DNA of 64,000 nucleotides from Devosia sp. (GTDB taxonomy: Bacteria > Pseudomonadota > Alphaproteobacteria > Rhizobiales > Devosiaceae): positions 124,001 to 188,000 of the forward strand of contig NZ_JAQGJM010000009.1 in the NCBI RefSeq assembly GCF_028290625.1. Reading direction: 5' to 3'. The notes beneath the pieces were generated by a model. That model did no database searches, was not told the origin of the DNA, and saw only the letters and a program-made list of their open reading frames with translations. The stretch's first letter is position 1; each line of letters begins with the position of its first letter. Both the position numbers and the translations under genes were made by a program. Shown piece after piece: positions 29,491 to 41,545 of this stretch.

Positions 29491-30690
29491 ATGGCTTTGA
29501 CCGAGGCTGCTCCGCGCGTTTCCCCCGAACTGCGCACGACCGCCTTCTATTTCACCTATTTCATGGCCGGTGGCGCCTCCGTGGTGTTCCTGCCGATCTG
29601 GCTGGCGCAGAAGGGCATCAATCCCGAGCAGACCGGTATCATCAATGCGCTGCCGATTTTTCTGATCATAGCGCTCAACCTGGTGGTGGGGCGCATTGCC
29701 GACCGGGCCAGCGACTGGCGCCAGGTGATCGTTATCGGCGCACTGATCGCCGGCATCATTCCCATCGGCCTGCTCTGGGTCAATGAATTCTGGGGTATCC
29801 TGCTGGTCTGGACGCTGGCCTCGCTGCCGCCCGGAGCCATCGGCCCGGTGATGGACGCCGCCACCATGCGCATGACCCGTCGCAACGGTACCGATTTCGG
29901 CACGATTCGCGCTTGGGGCACGGTCGGCTATATGCTGCTCAACGCCGGGACGGGGTTCCTGGTGGTGTGGTTCGGTTTCGATATTTTCGTGCCGCTATTC
30001 ATCGGCCTGGTGCTGTTGCGCGCGGCGGTGGCACTGTTCCTGCCCAAATTCCGCGCGCCGGTGAACGAGGCCACGATCGGCGCTGCCCGGCCGGTGGCGG
30101 GCAAGCTGCGCGAAGTGCTGAAACCCTGGTTCCTGCTGCCGCTGGCCGGGTTTTCGATCATTTACGGCACTCACTGGATTCTGAACGCCTTCGCGGCCTT
30201 GCTGTGGAAGCAGCAGGGCATTTCCGAGGACATTATTGGCCCGCTGATTGCGCTGGGCGCCTTCTCCGAGGCCGCAATGATGTTTGCCTGGCGGTTCTTT
30301 GGCGGAAGGGTATCCGCGCGAACCGTGCTGCTGATCTCGGCGGTCGTCACCGTGCTGCGCTGGGTTGCGATGGCGTTTTCGCCGCCGGTCTGGCTGCTGA
30401 TTCCGTTGCAGATGCTGCACGGCGTCACCTTTGCGCTGGGCTATCTCGGCGGTGTGCATTTCATCGCCAACTGGACCAGCGAGGACATCGCCGCGGAAAC
30501 CCAGAGCTATTTCGTGGTGGCGCAGCAGGCTATGTCGGTCATCGCGCTGGTCGGCTTCGGCTGGATCGTCGGCGCCCTGGGGCCGCACGGCTATTTCGTC
30601 GCGGCGGCCTTCGCTGCCGTGGGCGCGCTCTGCATCTGGCTGTCCAAGGCCATGGTGGCGCCCAAGAAGGACGCGCTGAGCGGCAGCTAA
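29491..30690 (+). CDS. MFS transporter, copy 2 (tandem paralog)
   Basis: FYFTYFMAGGASVVFLPIWLAQKGINPEQTGIINALPIFLIIALNLVVGRIADRASDWR aligns to copy 1 along its length. Confidence 0.88.
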   Translation: MALTEAAPRVSPELRTTAFYFTYFMAGGASVVFLPIWLAQKGINPEQTGIINALPIFLIIALNLVVGRIADRASDWRQVIVIGALIAGIIPIGLLWVNEFWGILLVWTLASLPPGAIGPVMDAATMRMTRRNGTDFGTIRAWGTVGYMLLNAGTGFLVVWFGFDIFVPLFIGLVLLRAAVALFLPKFRAPVNEATIGAARPVAGKLREVLKPWFLLPLAGFSIIYGTHWILNAFAALLWKQQGISEDIIGPLIALGAFSEAAMMFAWRFFGGRVSARTVLLISAVVTVLRWVAMAFSPPVWLLIPLQMLHGVTFALGYLGGVHFIANWTSEDIAAETQSYFVVAQQAMSVIALVGFGWIVGALGPHGYFVAAAFAAVGALCIWLSKAMVAPKKDALSGS

Positions 30691-31868
30691 GCTTGTGCGG
30701 CTGATCGGCGTTCCCGCGCCACCGTATCCCACGCGCCAAGGCCCACCAGCACCAGCGCCGTCATCGCGGCCAGCGGCAGTGGCTCGAGATTGCCGCCGAC
30801 CAGGCATAGCCCTACCAGCAGCACGATCGCCACGCCGGTGGAAACGGGCCATTGCCGGCGCAGCGTGCCCTGGAACAGGCTGGTGCCGCACAGATAGAGC
30901 AGGGGGCCACCCACAATGGTCAGCAGCGTGCCGAGATCGGCATGGTGGCCGGTCGGATGGGCCAACAGCAGCTCGTCCCCCACGGCGGAGACGATGATGC
31001 CGGCGACGATGATGGTGTGGAAATACGTATAGGCGTTGCGCGCCAGGTCGCTAGTGCGCTTGACCGTTCCGGCATCGACATGATCGGGGACGTGATGCTC
31101 GGCGCTGTTGTTGAAATAGATCCACCACATGGCCACCGAGCCGATAAATGCCACGATGAACGCCGTGAGGGTCAGCCCGTCGAAATGCGCGTCGGCGAAG
31201 GTAGCGCCGGTGACTAGGATTGATTCGCCCAGCGCGATGATGATGAACAGGCCCGCGCGTTCGGCCATGTGGCCGCCCTCGACGTCCAGTGCATTGAGCG
31301 CCGTCTTGCCCAACCATGGTGTCCAGAAGGCCAGCGCCGGGGAGGCGTACTCGACGATCACCGCAATGGTCCAGACGATCATGCGCTGTTCCACCGGGAG
31401 GAAAGCGCCGATGATCCAGAACAGGCCGCCGAATGCTTGCCATGAGGTAATGCGGAGGAAATTGACGGCATTGCCGGGCGTGTCGCGCCGCATGGCCCAG
31501 GCGGTGAACAGGCAGCGGCCGACCTGCATGAACACATAGGCCAGCGCAAAGGGCAGGCCGCGCTCGCCAAAGGCCTCGGGGATGGAGGTGGAAAACACCA
31601 GTCCCGCCAGCATCAGCGCGAACAGCATCAGCCGGACCACGGGGCGGGTCGGATCGAGCCAATTGGTCGCCCAGGCGGTATAGATCCACACCCACCACAT
31701 GGCGAACAGCACGATCGCCGCCTGGATCGCCCCCTGCCAGCTCAAATGCGCCAGCAGCGTATGTGACACCTGCGTGACCGCGAACACGAACACCAGATCG
31801 AAGAACAGCTCGGCAAAATCCACGCGGGCCGCCTCGCCGACGACGCGCTGGCGCAGATAACTTCTCAT
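30687..31868 (-). CDS. Low temperature requirement protein A (LtrA) family
   Basis: VDFAELFFDLVFVFAVTQVSHTLLAHLSWQGAIQAAIVLFAMWWVWIYTAWATNWLDP; 4-nt convergent overlap with the MFS gene. Confidence 0.92.
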   Translation of the reverse strand: MRSYLRQRVVGEAARVDFAELFFDLVFVFAVTQVSHTLLAHLSWQGAIQAAIVLFAMWWVWIYTAWATNWLDPTRPVVRLMLFALMLAGLVFSTSIPEAFGERGLPFALAYVFMQVGRCLFTAWAMRRDTPGNAVNFLRITSWQAFGGLFWIIGAFLPVEQRMIVWTIAVIVEYASPALAFWTPWLGKTALNALDVEGGHMAERAGLFIIIALGESILVTGATFADAHFDGLTLTAFIVAFIGSVAMWWIYFNNSAEHHVPDHVDAGTVKRTSDLARNAYTYFHTIIVAGIIVSAVGDELLLAHPTGHHADLGTLLTIVGGPLLYLCGTSLFQGTLRRQWPVSTGVAIVLLVGLCLVGGNLEPLPLAAMTALVLVGLGAWDTVARERRSAAQA

Positions 31869-31976
31869 GGCGTTCCCCGCGGCTCTATCCGACCGTGAGC
31901 CTAGATGGCCGATGTGCCGCTGTCATCGGGCGACGTTCATCTTGCACAGCCTCTGTCTCTTTAGCCCCCACAAACC

Positions 31977-32002
31977 AAAACGGCCCCGGTTTCCCGGGGC
32001 CG
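31977..32002 (-). terminator. Terminator of the 1822-aa gene
   Basis: On minus strand CGGCCCCGGGAAACCGGGGCCG followed by TTTTGG. Confidence 0.75.
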
Positions 32003-32026
32003 CTTCGCGACGTTGACTGTGAAAGC

Positions 32027-35000
32027 CTAGTTCAGGCGGCCGCTGGCATGGGCCAGGGTGGTATAGACCTTGCCGCGGTCGGAGAGCAGGTATTCGCGGG
32101 TTTCGGCGGCTGCGCGGGGGCCGGCGGCGGCACGCTTCAGGAGTTGTTCGAACTCGGACATATAGGCGTTAGCGGTGCGGGCGAAGTCGGCGTCGCGTTG
32201 GAACTTCTTGCGCACTTCGTCATAGGTGCCCTGGCCGGTCAGCGAGTAGATGCGGCGCGAGAACACGTTGGATTCACCGGCCTGGTAGCGGGTCCAGGCA
32301 TCGGCAAGGGCCGCGTCGTCGATCGAGCGGGCGATCTCGTCGGTCAGGCCGGACAGGCTCTGCTGCTGTGGCTGGGCGCTGGCCTGCTTGGCCGTGGCAT
32401 TGCGCAGCACGTCGCGGAGCCAGCCGCCATCGCCGGACTGCGCTGCCGGTGCAGCTTCCGCGACCACGGGCTGAGCTTCAGGCTCGCGCTGCGGCGGCAC
32501 CTGGCGCTGGGGCTCAGGACGGTAGGCGTCCTGGCGAGCCGGTTCCTGCCGCTGCGGGGTGGGGCGCAATACGTCCTGGATGGCCGATTCCTGACGTACC
32601 GGTTCCTGGCGGACTGGTTCTTGACGAGGCGGCTCCTGCCGCTGGGGCTCGGGGCGATAGGCCTCGGGCTGGCGCGGCGCCTGATAGGGGGCCTCGGCAC
32701 GCGGTTCCGAGCGGCTCGGGGTCGGTGGGCGGCGGTCGTTGAGGTCGCGCGTTGCGGGCTGGGCCCGCACGATGGCGTTGAGTTCGCTCAGCGCCTCGAT
32801 CTGCTCTGCCACGACGCGGCGCATGGCGGCAGCGCTGGCGCGGGTTTCCTCAGGCAGTTCGCTGACGCCGCGCTGCAGTTCGGAACGGGTGGCTTCGAGT
32901 TCGCTGCCCACTTCCTTGGCGGTGTCGCGCATGGCCTTGGCGGTATCGTTGAAGCGCACGGTGGCTTCCTCGATGGCCTTCTGCATTTCGGCGATCATGG
33001 TCTGCTGCGCCTGGCGCAGGACAGCATTGGCGCGCTGGCCCTGGGTGTCGGCGGTGTCGCGGAAATCGCCGAGACGGGCCGCCACTTCCTCGGTGGTCTG
33101 ATCCATGGCCTGGCGGAACGTGCCGGTGGTCTGGTCCAGCGCCTGGCGCAACTGGCCGGTATGGGAAGCCACCGTGTTGCGCACATTGGCCGAGCTTTCG
33201 CTGATCGCATCAGCCAGCGTGCCGGTGGTCGAGTTGAGCACGTCATTGACGTTGCCGGTGGTGATGGCCAGAACTTCGCTGACCCGCTCGCTGGTGTGGC
33301 TGAGGGTCTCGCCGATCCGGGCGCTGGTCTGATTGAGGGCTTCGTCGACGCGTGCCGCATTGCTGTTGAGCGCCGCGTTGACCCGCGAGGTGTTGTCCGA
33401 CAGCACCGAGCCGATCTGCGCGGAATTGTCGGAGAGCGCGTTCTTGACCACGTTGGTGGTCTGGCTGAGCGCTGCGGCCGCGGCATCGCTGGCACGGAGC
33501 AGGGCGCCATCGACCTGGGCAGAGTTGGCATTCAGTGTCGTGGTGAAGCGCTCGCTGGTCGAATACATCGCGTCGTTGACGCTCGAGGTGGTCGAGGTCA
33601 GCACGTCGGTGATGTTGACCGAAGTGGTGGTCAGTGCCTCATTGACGGCTGCCGTCGTGGTCGAGAGCGCGTTGGTCACGGTGTGGGTCGTGGCCTGCAG
33701 GGCATCGTCCATGGCGCGGCGAGCGCCGATCAGGCGGCGTTCGGTATCGTTGACGGTATCGGCAATCGACTGCGCAAACAGGCGCATGCGGCCATCGATA
33801 TCGTCGGCGCGCGAGGCGAAGCTCGAGGCCAGCGCATCCATGGCGCCGCGACGGTCTTCGAGGGTTTCGAGAGCCACGCTGCTGGTATTGGACAGCGAGT
33901 CCGAGGCCTGCTGCATATTGACGGCTTCGGCGTCGAGCTTGCCCAGGACGCTGGAGAATTCGCCGACCATCGAGCGGATGGTGGCCTGCAATGCCCCGAC
34001 ATGCTGGCTGACCATGGCGCCGGCCTGTTCGGTCTGGCCGATGGCGTCGCGGACGGTCGATGAGTAGGTCGAAGTCTGCTGCGCGACCGTGGATTCAAGG
34101 TTCGCCAGGTTAGCAGTGGAGGCATCCAGCACGCGTTGCAGCAGCAGGTTGCTGTCGTTGAGCTTGCCCAAAGCGGCGGTGACGTCGGTGAGGATGCGCG
34201 AGGTCGAGACCGACATGATGGCCTCGGCTTCGCGGGCATTCTCGCCCAAGGCGTCGCGCAACAGGTTGCCATGGCCCTGCAGGGCGTTCTGCAACTGGTC
34301 GGACTTTTCGCTGACCAGCGCCGCGAAGGCATTGGTCTGCTGATCGACGGAGCGGTTCACATCGGCCAGGCGCTGGCTGATGGTATCGACGGCGCCGACG
34401 GCGCGCACCGAAACCAGTTGGTCGATATCGGTGGCGGCGACGCGGATCTGGTCGAGCGCCGAACGGACGGCCAGGTCCATGCGGTTGGCGGTGTTGGTGA
34501 CGTCGGTCGAGATGGCTTCGGTCGCCAACGTGATGCGGGTCGAGATGGTTTCCTCGATCCGGTCGGCGCCTGCCTCGAGATCAGCCATCGATTGGGTGAT
34601 CGAGGTGTTGATCGAGGCATTGAGGGCCGAGAGGCGCTCGGCAGTGATGTCGGCGCGCGCGGTGATGGCCTCGGGCAGGGTGCCCAGGCGCTGGTCGACC
34701 AGGTCGGTGATGGTCTTGCGGGCCGAATTGACGTTGCTTTCGATCAGGTCGGCGGCCTTGCGGGCGCTATCGCTGACGGTCTGGCTGGCGTGGTCGATGC
34801 GGGCGGTGACGCCGGCTTCGGCATCGGAGATGCGCTTGACCGCGGTGTCGATGCCCTGGCCGAGGTTGTCGTTCACTTCGGCAACCTTGAGGGCGATCAT
34901 GTCCGACATGGACGAGACGCGGTCGGTCATGGCGTCGGTGGCGGTGCGCATCGAGCCGTCGATCTTGGCGCGGGCTTCGTCACTCTGGTGAATGAGGGTG

Positions 35001-37495
35001 TCCGCCAGCTCGCTGGTGCGCAGGCCGATGGTCTCGCCAATCGAGGTGGTGTGGGTCGCCAGGGTGTCGGAAAGCTGTTGTGTGCGGGCGCCGAGGGCGT
35101 CTGCAAGCTGTTGGGTACGGGTGCCTACGGCACCGGCCAGCTTTTGCGTGCCGCCATCCAGTGCGCTGGTCAGGGCCGCGCCGCGTTCGTCCAATTGGCT
35201 GGTGAGCAGGCCGGCGCGCTCGTCGATCTGGGTCGAGAGTTCCGTCGTGCGTTCGGCCAGCGTATCGGCAAGGCGCTGCGTGCGGCCGGAAATGGCCTGA
35301 TCGAATGCCGAAGTACCGCCGGCGAGGGTTTCGCCCAGCTCCTGCGAGCGTAGCCGGATGGCCTCGCTCATGTCCTGGCTGCGGCCGGACAGGGTTTCGT
35401 TCAGTTCCTGAGTCCGGGTATCGAGCGCCGAATTGATTTCGCCGGCGCGCGTGGTCAGCAACTCATCGAGCCGCTGCGTGCGGCCATCCATGGCCTCGGT
35501 GATGAGGTCGGCATGGCCGAGCAGCGAGTCGGTGATTTCGCGCGAATGGCCTTCCAGCGTGTCATGGATGGCCTTGGTGCGGCCTTCCAAAGCGTCGTTG
35601 AGCGTCCTGGTGCGACTTTCGAGGGCCGCGCTGAGGGCCACGGTGCGACCTTCCAGTGTATCGCCCAGGGTAGCAGTGCGGCTTTCCAGGGTATCGCTGA
35701 GGGTCTGGGCGCGGCCTTCCAGCGTGTCGCTGAGGGTCTTGGTGCGGCTGTCCAGCGTGTCGTTGACGAGCTTGGTGCCGCTCTCCATCGCTGCCGCTAT
35801 ATCGGCAGTGCGCAGGGTGACGACGTCGTTGAAGCGACCCGATTGTTCGTCCAACGCCATTTCCAGCACATTGGCGCGGGCGGCAAAGCTTGTGCCCTGC
35901 GCATCGAGACGCTGGATCAGATTGTCGCCCTTGTCGCCGATGACGCCGTCCAGCGTCTGCAGGCGCGAGTCGAGGATGCCGGCAATTTCGGTCAGCCGGG
36001 CATCGAACTGACCCAGCGAGTCGGCGCCGGCCGAGCTGAGGGTGATGCGGGCGCGTTCGGAGGTATCGTCCAGCGCGCCGTTGATTTCGATCAGCGCCGA
36101 TTGCAGGCGGCTGTCGAGGGAGTTGAGCTGGATCGACACGCTCTCGTCGAGCTGGCGCGTCAGCGAGGTCAGCATCGACTCGGCCTCGTTCGAGCGCAGG
36201 CCGATATTCTCGGCAATGCGCGAGCCGACCAGGTCGAGCGCGGTGCTCACCTGCTCGCCGCGGTCGCGGAGCTGTTCGAGCAGCGTCGAGCCGCCGTCGG
36301 TCAGCACGCTCGACAGCGCATTGGTGCGCTCTTCGATGGCGCCCGAGAGGGTGGTGGAGCGGCTGTCGAGGGCATCGGTCAGAGCCGTCATGCGGCCGTC
36401 GATGATCGAGGACAGTTCGATCGTGCGCGTTTCAAAGTCGCGCGACATGGTGGAGGAATGGTCTTCGAAAGTCAGCGCCAGGCGGCCGGCGCTGTCATCG
36501 ATAGCCGACAGGAATTCACCGGTGCGGTTATCCACCAGCGAGACAAAACCTTCGGTGCGGTCGCCGAACGCATTGGTCAGCGTGTTGCCGGCGGTTTCCA
36601 GAGCCTTGGTGAGGTTGCCGCCGCTTTCCACGATAGTGCCGGCAATGCGCTGGCTGATCATGTCGAGGTCGAACACCAGCCCGGTATGGCTCTCGGTGAT
36701 GGCTTCGCGGACCCGCTCGGTATTGGTCAAGACGCTTTCGCGCTGGCTGGCCAGTTCGGAGATCAGCGCGCGCATGCGCGATTCGTTGTCCGAATAGGTG
36801 CGTTCGAGCGCGGTGACCTCGTTGTGGATCATCACTTCGAGCTCGCCGGCGCGCGACAGGGCGCGTTCCAACCCGTCGCCCAGAGCGTTCACTTCGCGGC
36901 GAACGGCCTGGCCCACCGAGGCGACCTTGTCGGCTGCGGTGACTTCGGGTTCGGCCAGCCGGATCGCGGCCTGGGTGATCGAGGAGGCGGCGTTGCGCAG
37001 GTCGGCGGCGCGGCGGAACAGCGTCGCGACAGCGAAAAAGCCGAGGACCGGCAACACCAGCACGGCGACCATGCCGATGAAATCGAGGGTGCCGACAAAG
37101 CTGCCCAGATTGTTCAGCTGGGTGCCATAGCGGATATAGGCCGCGGCGCCGGTGGCCACCAGCCAGATGATCGACAGCACCAGCGCGATCACGGTCGGCG
37201 CATTGGACGACTTGTTCTGCAGGCCGTAGAGGATCTTGGAGGTCGGAAAGCGGTCGTCATTGGCGATATTGCCGGCCTGGCTCGCGATCTTGTCGGCGGC
37301 GCGCAGGCGTTCGGAACGACCGGGCGAGGGCGAAGAGCTGGTCGAGGCTGACGACGAATCAGTCAGGCGCCGTTCGGAAGAAGTTTCCTTGGGCGTCGGT
37401 GCATCCAGGCCAAAAACCGATTCCTTGAGAGCGTCTTCAACCGCCGAAAATGCCAAGGCGGCGGGATCGTTTGCTGGGGTGGGGTTATTCGCCAT
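32027..37495 (-). CDS. 1822-aa membrane-anchored coiled-coil / apolipoprotein-like repeat protein; Growth Pole Ring (GPR)-like candidate
   Basis: N-terminal hydrophobic segments (VIALVLSIIWLVATGAAAYI; IGMVAVLVLPVLGFFAVATLF), very long tandem 11-residue repeats, Pro/Gln/Arg-rich linker and a conserved-looking C-terminal domain. Confidence 0.85.
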   Translation of the reverse strand: MANNPTPANDPAALAFSAVEDALKESVFGLDAPTPKETSSERRLTDSSSASTSSSPSPGRSERLRAADKIASQAGNIANDDRFPTSKILYGLQNKSSNAPTVIALVLSIIWLVATGAAAYIRYGTQLNNLGSFVGTLDFIGMVAVLVLPVLGFFAVATLFRRAADLRNAASSITQAAIRLAEPEVTAADKVASVGQAVRREVNALGDGLERALSRAGELEVMIHNEVTALERTYSDNESRMRALISELASQRESVLTNTERVREAITESHTGLVFDLDMISQRIAGTIVESGGNLTKALETAGNTLTNAFGDRTEGFVSLVDNRTGEFLSAIDDSAGRLALTFEDHSSTMSRDFETRTIELSSIIDGRMTALTDALDSRSTTLSGAIEERTNALSSVLTDGGSTLLEQLRDRGEQVSTALDLVGSRIAENIGLRSNEAESMLTSLTRQLDESVSIQLNSLDSRLQSALIEINGALDDTSERARITLSSAGADSLGQFDARLTEIAGILDSRLQTLDGVIGDKGDNLIQRLDAQGTSFAARANVLEMALDEQSGRFNDVVTLRTADIAAAMESGTKLVNDTLDSRTKTLSDTLEGRAQTLSDTLESRTATLGDTLEGRTVALSAALESRTRTLNDALEGRTKAIHDTLEGHSREITDSLLGHADLITEAMDGRTQRLDELLTTRAGEINSALDTRTQELNETLSGRSQDMSEAIRLRSQELGETLAGGTSAFDQAISGRTQRLADTLAERTTELSTQIDERAGLLTSQLDERGAALTSALDGGTQKLAGAVGTRTQQLADALGARTQQLSDTLATHTTSIGETIGLRTSELADTLIHQSDEARAKIDGSMRTATDAMTDRVSSMSDMIALKVAEVNDNLGQGIDTAVKRISDAEAGVTARIDHASQTVSDSARKAADLIESNVNSARKTITDLVDQRLGTLPEAITARADITAERLSALNASINTSITQSMADLEAGADRIEETISTRITLATEAISTDVTNTANRMDLAVRSALDQIRVAATDIDQLVSVRAVGAVDTISQRLADVNRSVDQQTNAFAALVSEKSDQLQNALQGHGNLLRDALGENAREAEAIMSVSTSRILTDVTAALGKLNDSNLLLQRVLDASTANLANLESTVAQQTSTYSSTVRDAIGQTEQAGAMVSQHVGALQATIRSMVGEFSSVLGKLDAEAVNMQQASDSLSNTSSVALETLEDRRGAMDALASSFASRADDIDGRMRLFAQSIADTVNDTERRLIGARRAMDDALQATTHTVTNALSTTTAAVNEALTTTSVNITDVLTSTTSSVNDAMYSTSERFTTTLNANSAQVDGALLRASDAAAAALSQTTNVVKNALSDNSAQIGSVLSDNTSRVNAALNSNAARVDEALNQTSARIGETLSHTSERVSEVLAITTGNVNDVLNSTTGTLADAISESSANVRNTVASHTGQLRQALDQTTGTFRQAMDQTTEEVAARLGDFRDTADTQGQRANAVLRQAQQTMIAEMQKAIEEATVRFNDTAKAMRDTAKEVGSELEATRSELQRGVSELPEETRASAAAMRRVVAEQIEALSELNAIVRAQPATRDLNDRRPPTPSRSEPRAEAPYQAPRQPEAYRPEPQRQEPPRQEPVRQEPVRQESAIQDVLRPTPQRQEPARQDAYRPEPQRQVPPQREPEAQPVVAEAAPAAQSGDGGWLRDVLRNATAKQASAQPQQQSLSGLTDEIARSIDDAALADAWTRYQAGESNVFSRRIYSLTGQGTYDEVRKKFQRDADFARTANAYMSEFEQLLKRAAAGPRAAAETREYLLSDRGKVYTTLAHASGRLN
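33065..33691 (-). repeat. 19 tandem 33-nt (11-aa) coding repeats, type TTxxVxxALxx
   Basis: TTHTVTNALST TTAAVNEALTT TSVNITDVLTS TTSSVNDAMYS ... TTGTFRQAMDQ TTEEVAARLGD in strict 11-aa register. Confidence 0.85.
34991..35749 (-). repeat. 23 tandem 33-nt (11-aa) coding repeats, type xRTxxLxxxLx
   Basis: SRTKTLSDTLE GRAQTLSDTLE SRTATLGDTLE GRTVALSAALE ... ARTQQLSDTLA THTTSIGETIG LRTSELADTLI in strict 11-aa register. Confidence 0.9.
36167..36562 (-). repeat. About 12 tandem 33-nt (11-aa) coding repeats, degenerate
   Basis: DRTEGFVSLVD NRTGEFLSAID DSAGRLALTFE DHSSTMSRDFE TRTIELSSIID GRMTALTDALD SRSTTLSGAIE ERTNALSSVLT ... Confidence 0.75.
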
Positions 37496-37855: not shown

Positions 37856-38248
37856 ATGGCCCAGAACGCATTCTCTGCCGAAAATCCGGGCCCCGACCTC
37901 GCCCGACGTCCTGCGCGGCCGATCGACCTGGTTCATCTGGCGCGCCAATGCCTGGGCGATGCGGGCCTCGAACAGGAAATCCTGCGGCTGTTCGACACCA
38001 CCGCCAAGACCTATTTCGCCCGCCTGCAGCAATCGAGCACCTTCGATGAGCTGGCTTTGAACCTGCACTCGCTTAAGGGCGCCGCCAGTGGCGTTGGCGC
38101 CTGGTCTATCGCCGAACTGGCCCGCGCCGCCGAAACCGACCTCAAAGTCGGCCGCCCCCTCACTCCCGAACAGATCGACGATATCGGCGTCGCGGTAGAA
38201 GAGGTCAGCGCGTTCGTGGCCGAAATGCTGAGCAAAGAGCCGATCTAG
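37856..38248 (+). CDS. Hpt (histidine phosphotransfer) domain protein
   Basis: 130 aa; ALNLHSLKGAASGVGAWSIAELARAAE matches the HxxKG Hpt phosphorylation motif. Confidence 0.85.
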   Translation: MAQNAFSAENPGPDLARRPARPIDLVHLARQCLGDAGLEQEILRLFDTTAKTYFARLQQSSTFDELALNLHSLKGAASGVGAWSIAELARAAETDLKVGRPLTPEQIDDIGVAVEEVSAFVAEMLSKEPI

Positions 38249-41224: not shown

Positions 41225-41545
41225 ATGGCTAAAGTGACTTTCGTCGAGCCCGATGGCGAGCGCATCGAGACCGAGGCGCAGAACGGGTCGACCGTGATGG
41301 AGACCGCCGTCATCAATGGCGTTCCAGGCATTATCGGCGAGTGCGGCGGCGCCTGCACCTGCGCGACGTGCCATGTCTATGTCGACGACGCCTGGACCGA
41401 AGTGGTCGGTCCGCCGTCGAACATGGAAGAGGACATGCTGGACTTCGCCTTCGACGTGAAGCCGACCAGCCGGCTGGGTTGCCAAATCAAGATCAAGGAC
41501 GTTCTCGACGGCTTGGTGCTGCACGTGCCGACGCGGCAGGGGTGA
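41225..41545 (+). CDS. 2Fe-2S ferredoxin (adrenodoxin/Isc type), copy 1
   Basis: GECGGACTCATCHVYVDDAWTEVVGPPSNMEEDMLDFAFDVKPTSRLGCQIK. Confidence 0.93.
   Translation: MAKVTFVEPDGERIETEAQNGSTVMETAVINGVPGIIGECGGACTCATCHVYVDDAWTEVVGPPSNMEEDMLDFAFDVKPTSRLGCQIKIKDVLDGLVLHVPTRQG

Follow-up and report, generated by a model that had tools for sequence, protein, structure and literature searches.

How wall growth is confined to one pole in Hyphomicrobiales that lack MreB is a long-standing puzzle, for which the Growth Pole Ring protein (GPR; RgsE in Sinorhizobium meliloti) is the best structural candidate. GPR localises to the pole and forms a ring, and loss of its C terminus (delta-221) abolishes function (PMC8262873); RgsE binds the partners RgsA, RgsS and TolQ (PMC7327166). 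The Devosia genome from which our window derives (the whole 64,000-nucleotide stretch of DNA analysed here) contains no MreB according to a search that recovers this protein in Caulobacter and E. coli controls, and a giant reading frame within the window had been proposed to encode a GPR homolog. We asked whether this protein is indeed the GPR of Devosia, and what its enormous repetitive rod might do. Our analyses make it very probable that it is a GPR/RgsE orthologue and a membrane-anchored growth-pole scaffold, hence a family already known, here recognised in a further genus. The comparison of this family across the class and a shift in the construction of its rod may be unexpected even to a specialist; the rod shift is the new part. 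The features of the locus are as follows.

32027 to 37495, minus strand: very probable gpr/rgsE orthologue, an intact single open reading frame of 1822 aa with an ATG start
37004 to 37210, minus strand: pair of transmembrane (TM) helices forming a hairpin anchor, residues 96-123 and 129-164, from hydropathy and AlphaFold
36704 to 37003, minus strand: conserved post-membrane helix (GQAVRREVNALGDGLERALSRAGELEVMIHNEVTALE...), residues 165-264, local period ~3.56, from the alignment and the local period
34226 to 36703, minus strand: hendecad rod A, residues 265-1090, ~75 units in near-constant register, from phase analysis and PF01442 (E=2.6e-53)
35548 to 35787 and 35049 to 35125: 33-bp DNA repeats inside rod A
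33746 to 34198, minus strand: register slip, residues 1100-1250, local period ~3.57, from phase analysis
32846 to 33748, minus strand: hendecad rod B, residues 1250-1550, from lag-11 identity and phase analysis
32396 to 32728, minus strand: flexible Pro/Gln/Arg/Glu-rich linker, residues ~1590-1700, from the sequence
32030 to 32389, minus strand: all-helical C-terminal domain, residues ~1703-1822, from AlphaFold, conserved class-wide
37856 to 38248, plus strand: Hpt-domain gene, divergent neighbour of gpr (Pfam Hpt 1.6e-9)
41225 to 41545, plus strand: 2Fe-2S ferredoxin gene, upstream neighbour of gpr (Pfam Fer2 3.6e-10)

This layout bears out the original prediction of a single 1822-codon minus-strand frame with two N-terminal hydrophobic segments, a PQER-rich linker and a folded C terminus. 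Codon-position GC is 0.65/0.50/0.83, as is usual for a coding gene, and the AlphaFold model of the N terminus (helices at ~99-123 and ~137-179) has the TM hairpin continuing as one long helix into residues 165-264, the best-conserved stretch of alignment A2. The linker is gappy and length-variable among relatives; beyond it, AlphaFold models the last 139 residues as seven helices (block-mean pLDDT 87-94 for the folded last 100), for which a PDB fold search returned no relative (best E 0.67). Open frames also run antisense to the gene on the plus strand (31895-34063, 722 aa; 35513-37351, 612 aa; up to 2438 aa in relatives, at L151), probably as a by-product of high third-position GC and residue composition. 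Directly 5' of the start codon, an in-frame ADARVV(K/E)S stretch kept by many Devosiaceae (L001-L078) could be a conserved leader or translation signal, or may indicate that translation begins further upstream.

Because repeats inflate similarity along the central rod, the case for homology rests on the termini, and a lack of terminal similarity had been set beforehand as the result that would refute it. In the S. meliloti form of this comparison both termini matched: the N-terminal profile hit Sinorhizobium genomes G724 and G642 with E values of 2.6e-60 and 3.8e-61, and the C-terminal profile hit the same frame in each (2.8e-56 and 2.0e-56), which spans 2094 and 2090 aa respectively, and aligns at full length with the Devosia protein (blastp E ~1e-134, 26% identity). 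Both genomes lie near S. meliloti, with 95% DNA identity to strain 1021 over an 8-kb stretch of pSymB; these relatives were used because pAtC58 DNA found at best 84% identity in the genomes searched, which do not include C58. The link to A. tumefaciens GPR therefore runs via RgsE, a protein of 2089 aa, and its published 42% identity to GPR (PMC7327166). More widely, the N-terminal profile (254 columns) matched 377 of 398 Hyphomicrobiales genomes, nearly always once per genome and once in that of the window, and the C-terminal profile matched 36 of 36, on the same frame wherever both profiles were run and the gene was unsplit by a contig end. Orthologues were collected from 78 mostly Devosiaceae loci, the best (94% identical) from a Devosia metagenome assembly and the others mostly from Devosia. 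A contig filed under a Nitrococcus metagenome-assembled genome (L054) carries a Devosia-type GPR, probably through a binning error. Frames of ~3,000-3,400 residues, far above the published GPR length, occur in two genera of the Sinorhizobium family (g228 and g150; L121, L125, L130, L137).

Gene order agrees with the terminal domains. An Hpt gene lies between gpr and the ferredoxin gene in 74 of the 78 loci (tblastn, mostly Devosiaceae), and the divergent ferredoxin gene is found upstream in 71, as well as in seven of eight other Hyphomicrobiales loci examined. Outside the order, five nearer relatives keep the divergent Hpt gene, three of them together with the ferredoxin gene, and therefore share positional orthology, more than a common domain. 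The persistence of the Hpt gene suggests that the pole scaffold is linked to a phosphorelay. An LtrA gene directly downstream of gpr (30687-31868), present at that place in one of 78 related loci, is a recent local insertion. We rejected a Zorya ZorA assignment (34.4 bits against a cut-off of 190), the flanking genes being LtrA, Hpt, PrfC, methyltransferase and ferredoxin; kinship with SMC, SpiroCoCo or apolipophorin was likewise discarded, as these are rod-only pattern matches below their cut-offs.

The 11-residue period of the rod had been taken to imply a hendecad-type helix, and the hydrophobic repeat is indeed far above shuffled sequence: power at 11/3 across residues 181-1560 is 55.9, against a maximum of 11.7 over 500 shuffles and all periods from 3.3 to 4.0. 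Lag-11 residue identity is 0.346 in residues 561-860 (maximum of 200 shuffles, 0.170) and 0.264 in residues 1251-1500 (0.163), marginal in residues 181-560 (0.149 vs 0.141), and absent from residues 861-1250. Hydrophobic phase is near constant from ~265 to 1090, slips at ~1100-1250, and returns at 1250-1550, such that the three blocks of 12, 23 and 19 units described earlier are real 11-residue repeats, whose counts were too low for a register that extends over ~75 hendecads in the first rod. In the clearest block Leu or Ile occupies two of 11 positions, at spacings of 4 and 7, with Thr, Ala and Ser alongside, and the ~1,380-residue rod as a whole is a nearly proline-free helix (three prolines only, at 183, 941 and 1548). 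An extended 1,700-residue GPR helix has been given as 600 nm (PMC8262873); by our own arithmetic, an alpha-helix of this length measures ~255 nm at 0.15 nm per residue.

Such repeats might be apolipoprotein-like: a proposal made for A. tumefaciens GPR has them bind or sort lipid where the pole grows (PMC8262873), and the strong match of the rod to PF01442 (181 bits; cut-off 90), together with weak PDB matches within the repeats to human apoA-IV (E 0.001-0.003; the only protein returned by the sequence search), fits this proposal. We nevertheless consider it unlikely as the main role. PF01442 is a repeat model which also scores, below cut-off, in seven of 14 unrelated control genomes, and those relatives described below whose rods repeat every 25 residues mostly lack a match to it while keeping the remaining architecture. 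Further, the hydrophobic face is only a narrow two-Leu stripe, the rod carries a net charge of -77 with very little Lys (1.4%), and no 18-mer exceeds the strict HeliQuest-type D threshold of 1.34 (3.7% exceed 0.68). With two Leu or Ile per 11 residues, this predicted charge pattern argues against lipid sorting as the principal job of the repeats, and for a coiled-coil scaffold. Published deletions of GPR rod segments affected ring formation, and do not tell lipid binding from coiled-coil formation; the charge pattern is a concrete reason for placing tests of coiled-coil packing ahead of lipid sorting.

The C-terminal domain is not confined to polar growers. Across the class, its profile matched 74 of 289 genomes (nearly all from outside Hyphomicrobiales); the matches lie at the ends of frames mostly of 500-2400 aa, and most of the 39 relatives extracted combine this domain with one or two near-N-terminal TM segments and a long periodic helix. 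As judged from sequence, this domain is thus the mark of a class-wide family composed of two TM helices, a rod and the shared cap. Among Caulobacteraceae, profile A6 found a single match in each of 49 genomes out of 60, in frames mostly of 800-1000 aa; members from the genus Caulobacter are single-copy proteins of 821-1008 aa, and occur alongside an MreB 98-100% identical to PDB 4cze, the MreB of C. crescentus. In the reverse search with the Caulobacteraceae profile, every complete member scored above every reversed decoy, and the gpr frame was the best of 552 frames in the window (E 5e-4). TipN, the Caulobacter new-pole marker, is 882 aa long (PMC13170164), and published work describes it as analogous or similar to GPR (PMC13170164, PMC8546619), so the single-copy 820-1010 aa Caulobacteraceae proteins are, by genus and size, probably TipN. 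A cap and layout common to the class, including users of MreB, would suggest that GPR is an older polarity scaffold that was modified, and that polar growers did not invent it.

What sets the Hyphomicrobiales apart is the rod. By one measure applied to all, the hydrophobic period is 3.616-3.656 in 28 Hyphomicrobiales rods and 3.557-3.613 in 56 others, with zero overlap. Most rods outside the order repeat at lags of 25, 50, 75 and 100 (period ~3.57, or 25/7); those within it repeat at lags of 11, 22 and 44 (~3.66, or 11/3), and the two members of lowest period, at 910 and 936 aa, are short; one comes from an MreB-keeping family. A tree of the C-terminal domain (122 columns, moderate support) nests Hyphomicrobiales inside mostly 25-residue relatives, and their nearest neighbour therein (L206) has lag-29 repeats. 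As 25 is 7+7+11 and 29 is 7+11+11, the pattern is consistent with heptads having given way to hendecads step by step. Two long rods outside the order (L164 and L169) show a shift in the same direction relative to shorter sisters; a third (L209, 1977 aa) is long yet unshifted, and rod length alone is therefore not decisive. Ignoring kinship, length correlates with period inside Hyphomicrobiales (rho 0.56, p 0.002); we rejected it as a driver outside the order (rho -0.08, p 0.64, kinship again ignored). We thus lean, with moderate confidence, towards a model in which GPR and the TipN-like proteins form one class-wide family of membrane-anchored rods, with a helical cap lacking a known fold, whose rod was rebuilt on the Hyphomicrobiales branch from heptads through 25- and 29-residue to pure 11-residue repeats. 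This would have turned a left-handed coiled coil into a nearly straight one, allowing rods of 1,800-3,000 residues, in convergence with Scy and FilP of tip-growing Actinobacteria. An earlier statement of this shift was not found in the literature searched, coverage of which was partial.

The breadth of the family also bears on what the Devosia protein does. Several Hyphomicrobiales genomes (G001, G011, G018, G025, G031, G032, G037, G038 and G039) encode both full-length MreB and a GPR homologue, and since the two co-occur, GPR is no simple replacement for MreB in this order. Small Hyphomicrobiales genomes of 0.9-1.6 Mb (family f4, genus g58) have matches to neither. Homologues are present in families of the order that have MreB, and across MreB-bearing Alphaproteobacteria, so the family extends beyond polar growth without MreB, and the Devosia protein might be a true homologue with no role in polar growth, for example a general polarity marker like TipN, which is probably among the class-wide relatives, or a division factor. 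We consider this reading unlikely, and give it slightly less credence than lipid sorting. Against it, Devosia lacks MreB and belongs to the clade whose homologues in S. meliloti and A. tumefaciens work at the growth pole. That the likeness to GPR is mere convergence in composition, low-complexity or coiled-coil, of the kind behind the weak, rod-only matches to the ZorA, SpiroCoCo and apolipophorin models, is, on the sequence evidence, refuted by the terminal-domain tests, in which non-repetitive N- and C-terminal profiles matched the same single frame per genome with E values down to 1e-84, reversed decoys fell below every complete member, and neighbouring genes were shared.

Returning to a growth-pole scaffold, we infer the polar localisation and role of the Devosia protein by analogy with its characterised homologues, and propose the following mechanism. 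The TM hairpin would hold the protein in the inner membrane, leaving both of its ends cytoplasmic, and its ~120 hendecads would form an amphipathic helix that is almost straight, its narrow Leu/Ile/Val stripe flanked by small Thr, Ala and Ser. Such helices might pack together as an almost untwisted coiled-coil bundle, by which several molecules could build a stiff rod or ring under the pole. The proline-rich linker may then present the C-terminal helical domain for docking, and recruitment of partners would confine wall synthesis to the growing pole.

Among known systems, A. tumefaciens GPR (Atu1348, 2115 aa) has the same published layout of two N-terminal TM helices, a very long PF01442 helix, a proline-rich region and ~115 C-terminal residues (PMC8262873); the Devosia protein, compared through this layout and via RgsE, is shorter. 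S. meliloti RgsE (SMc00190), represented by the near-S. meliloti genomes, shares both termini, a full-length match and the divergent ferredoxin neighbour, but is ~270 aa longer, and at the threshold applied no Hpt gene was found next to it. The TipN-like proteins of Caulobacter share near-N-terminal TM segments, a long helix and a homologous C-terminal domain, and overexpression of either TipN or GPR produces ectopic poles (PMC5347347, PMC8262873); they differ in a rod half as long or less, of period 3.59 with 25-residue repeats, and in lacking an Hpt or ferredoxin neighbour. Scy and FilP of Streptomyces differ in their DivIVA-type N terminus, absence of a TM hairpin, and phylum, and are thus a convergent, functional parallel: they too are long hendecad rods grown from heptads, serving as polar scaffolds of tip-growing bacteria, and the small core residues of their hendecads resemble those of the Devosia rod (PMC9858780).
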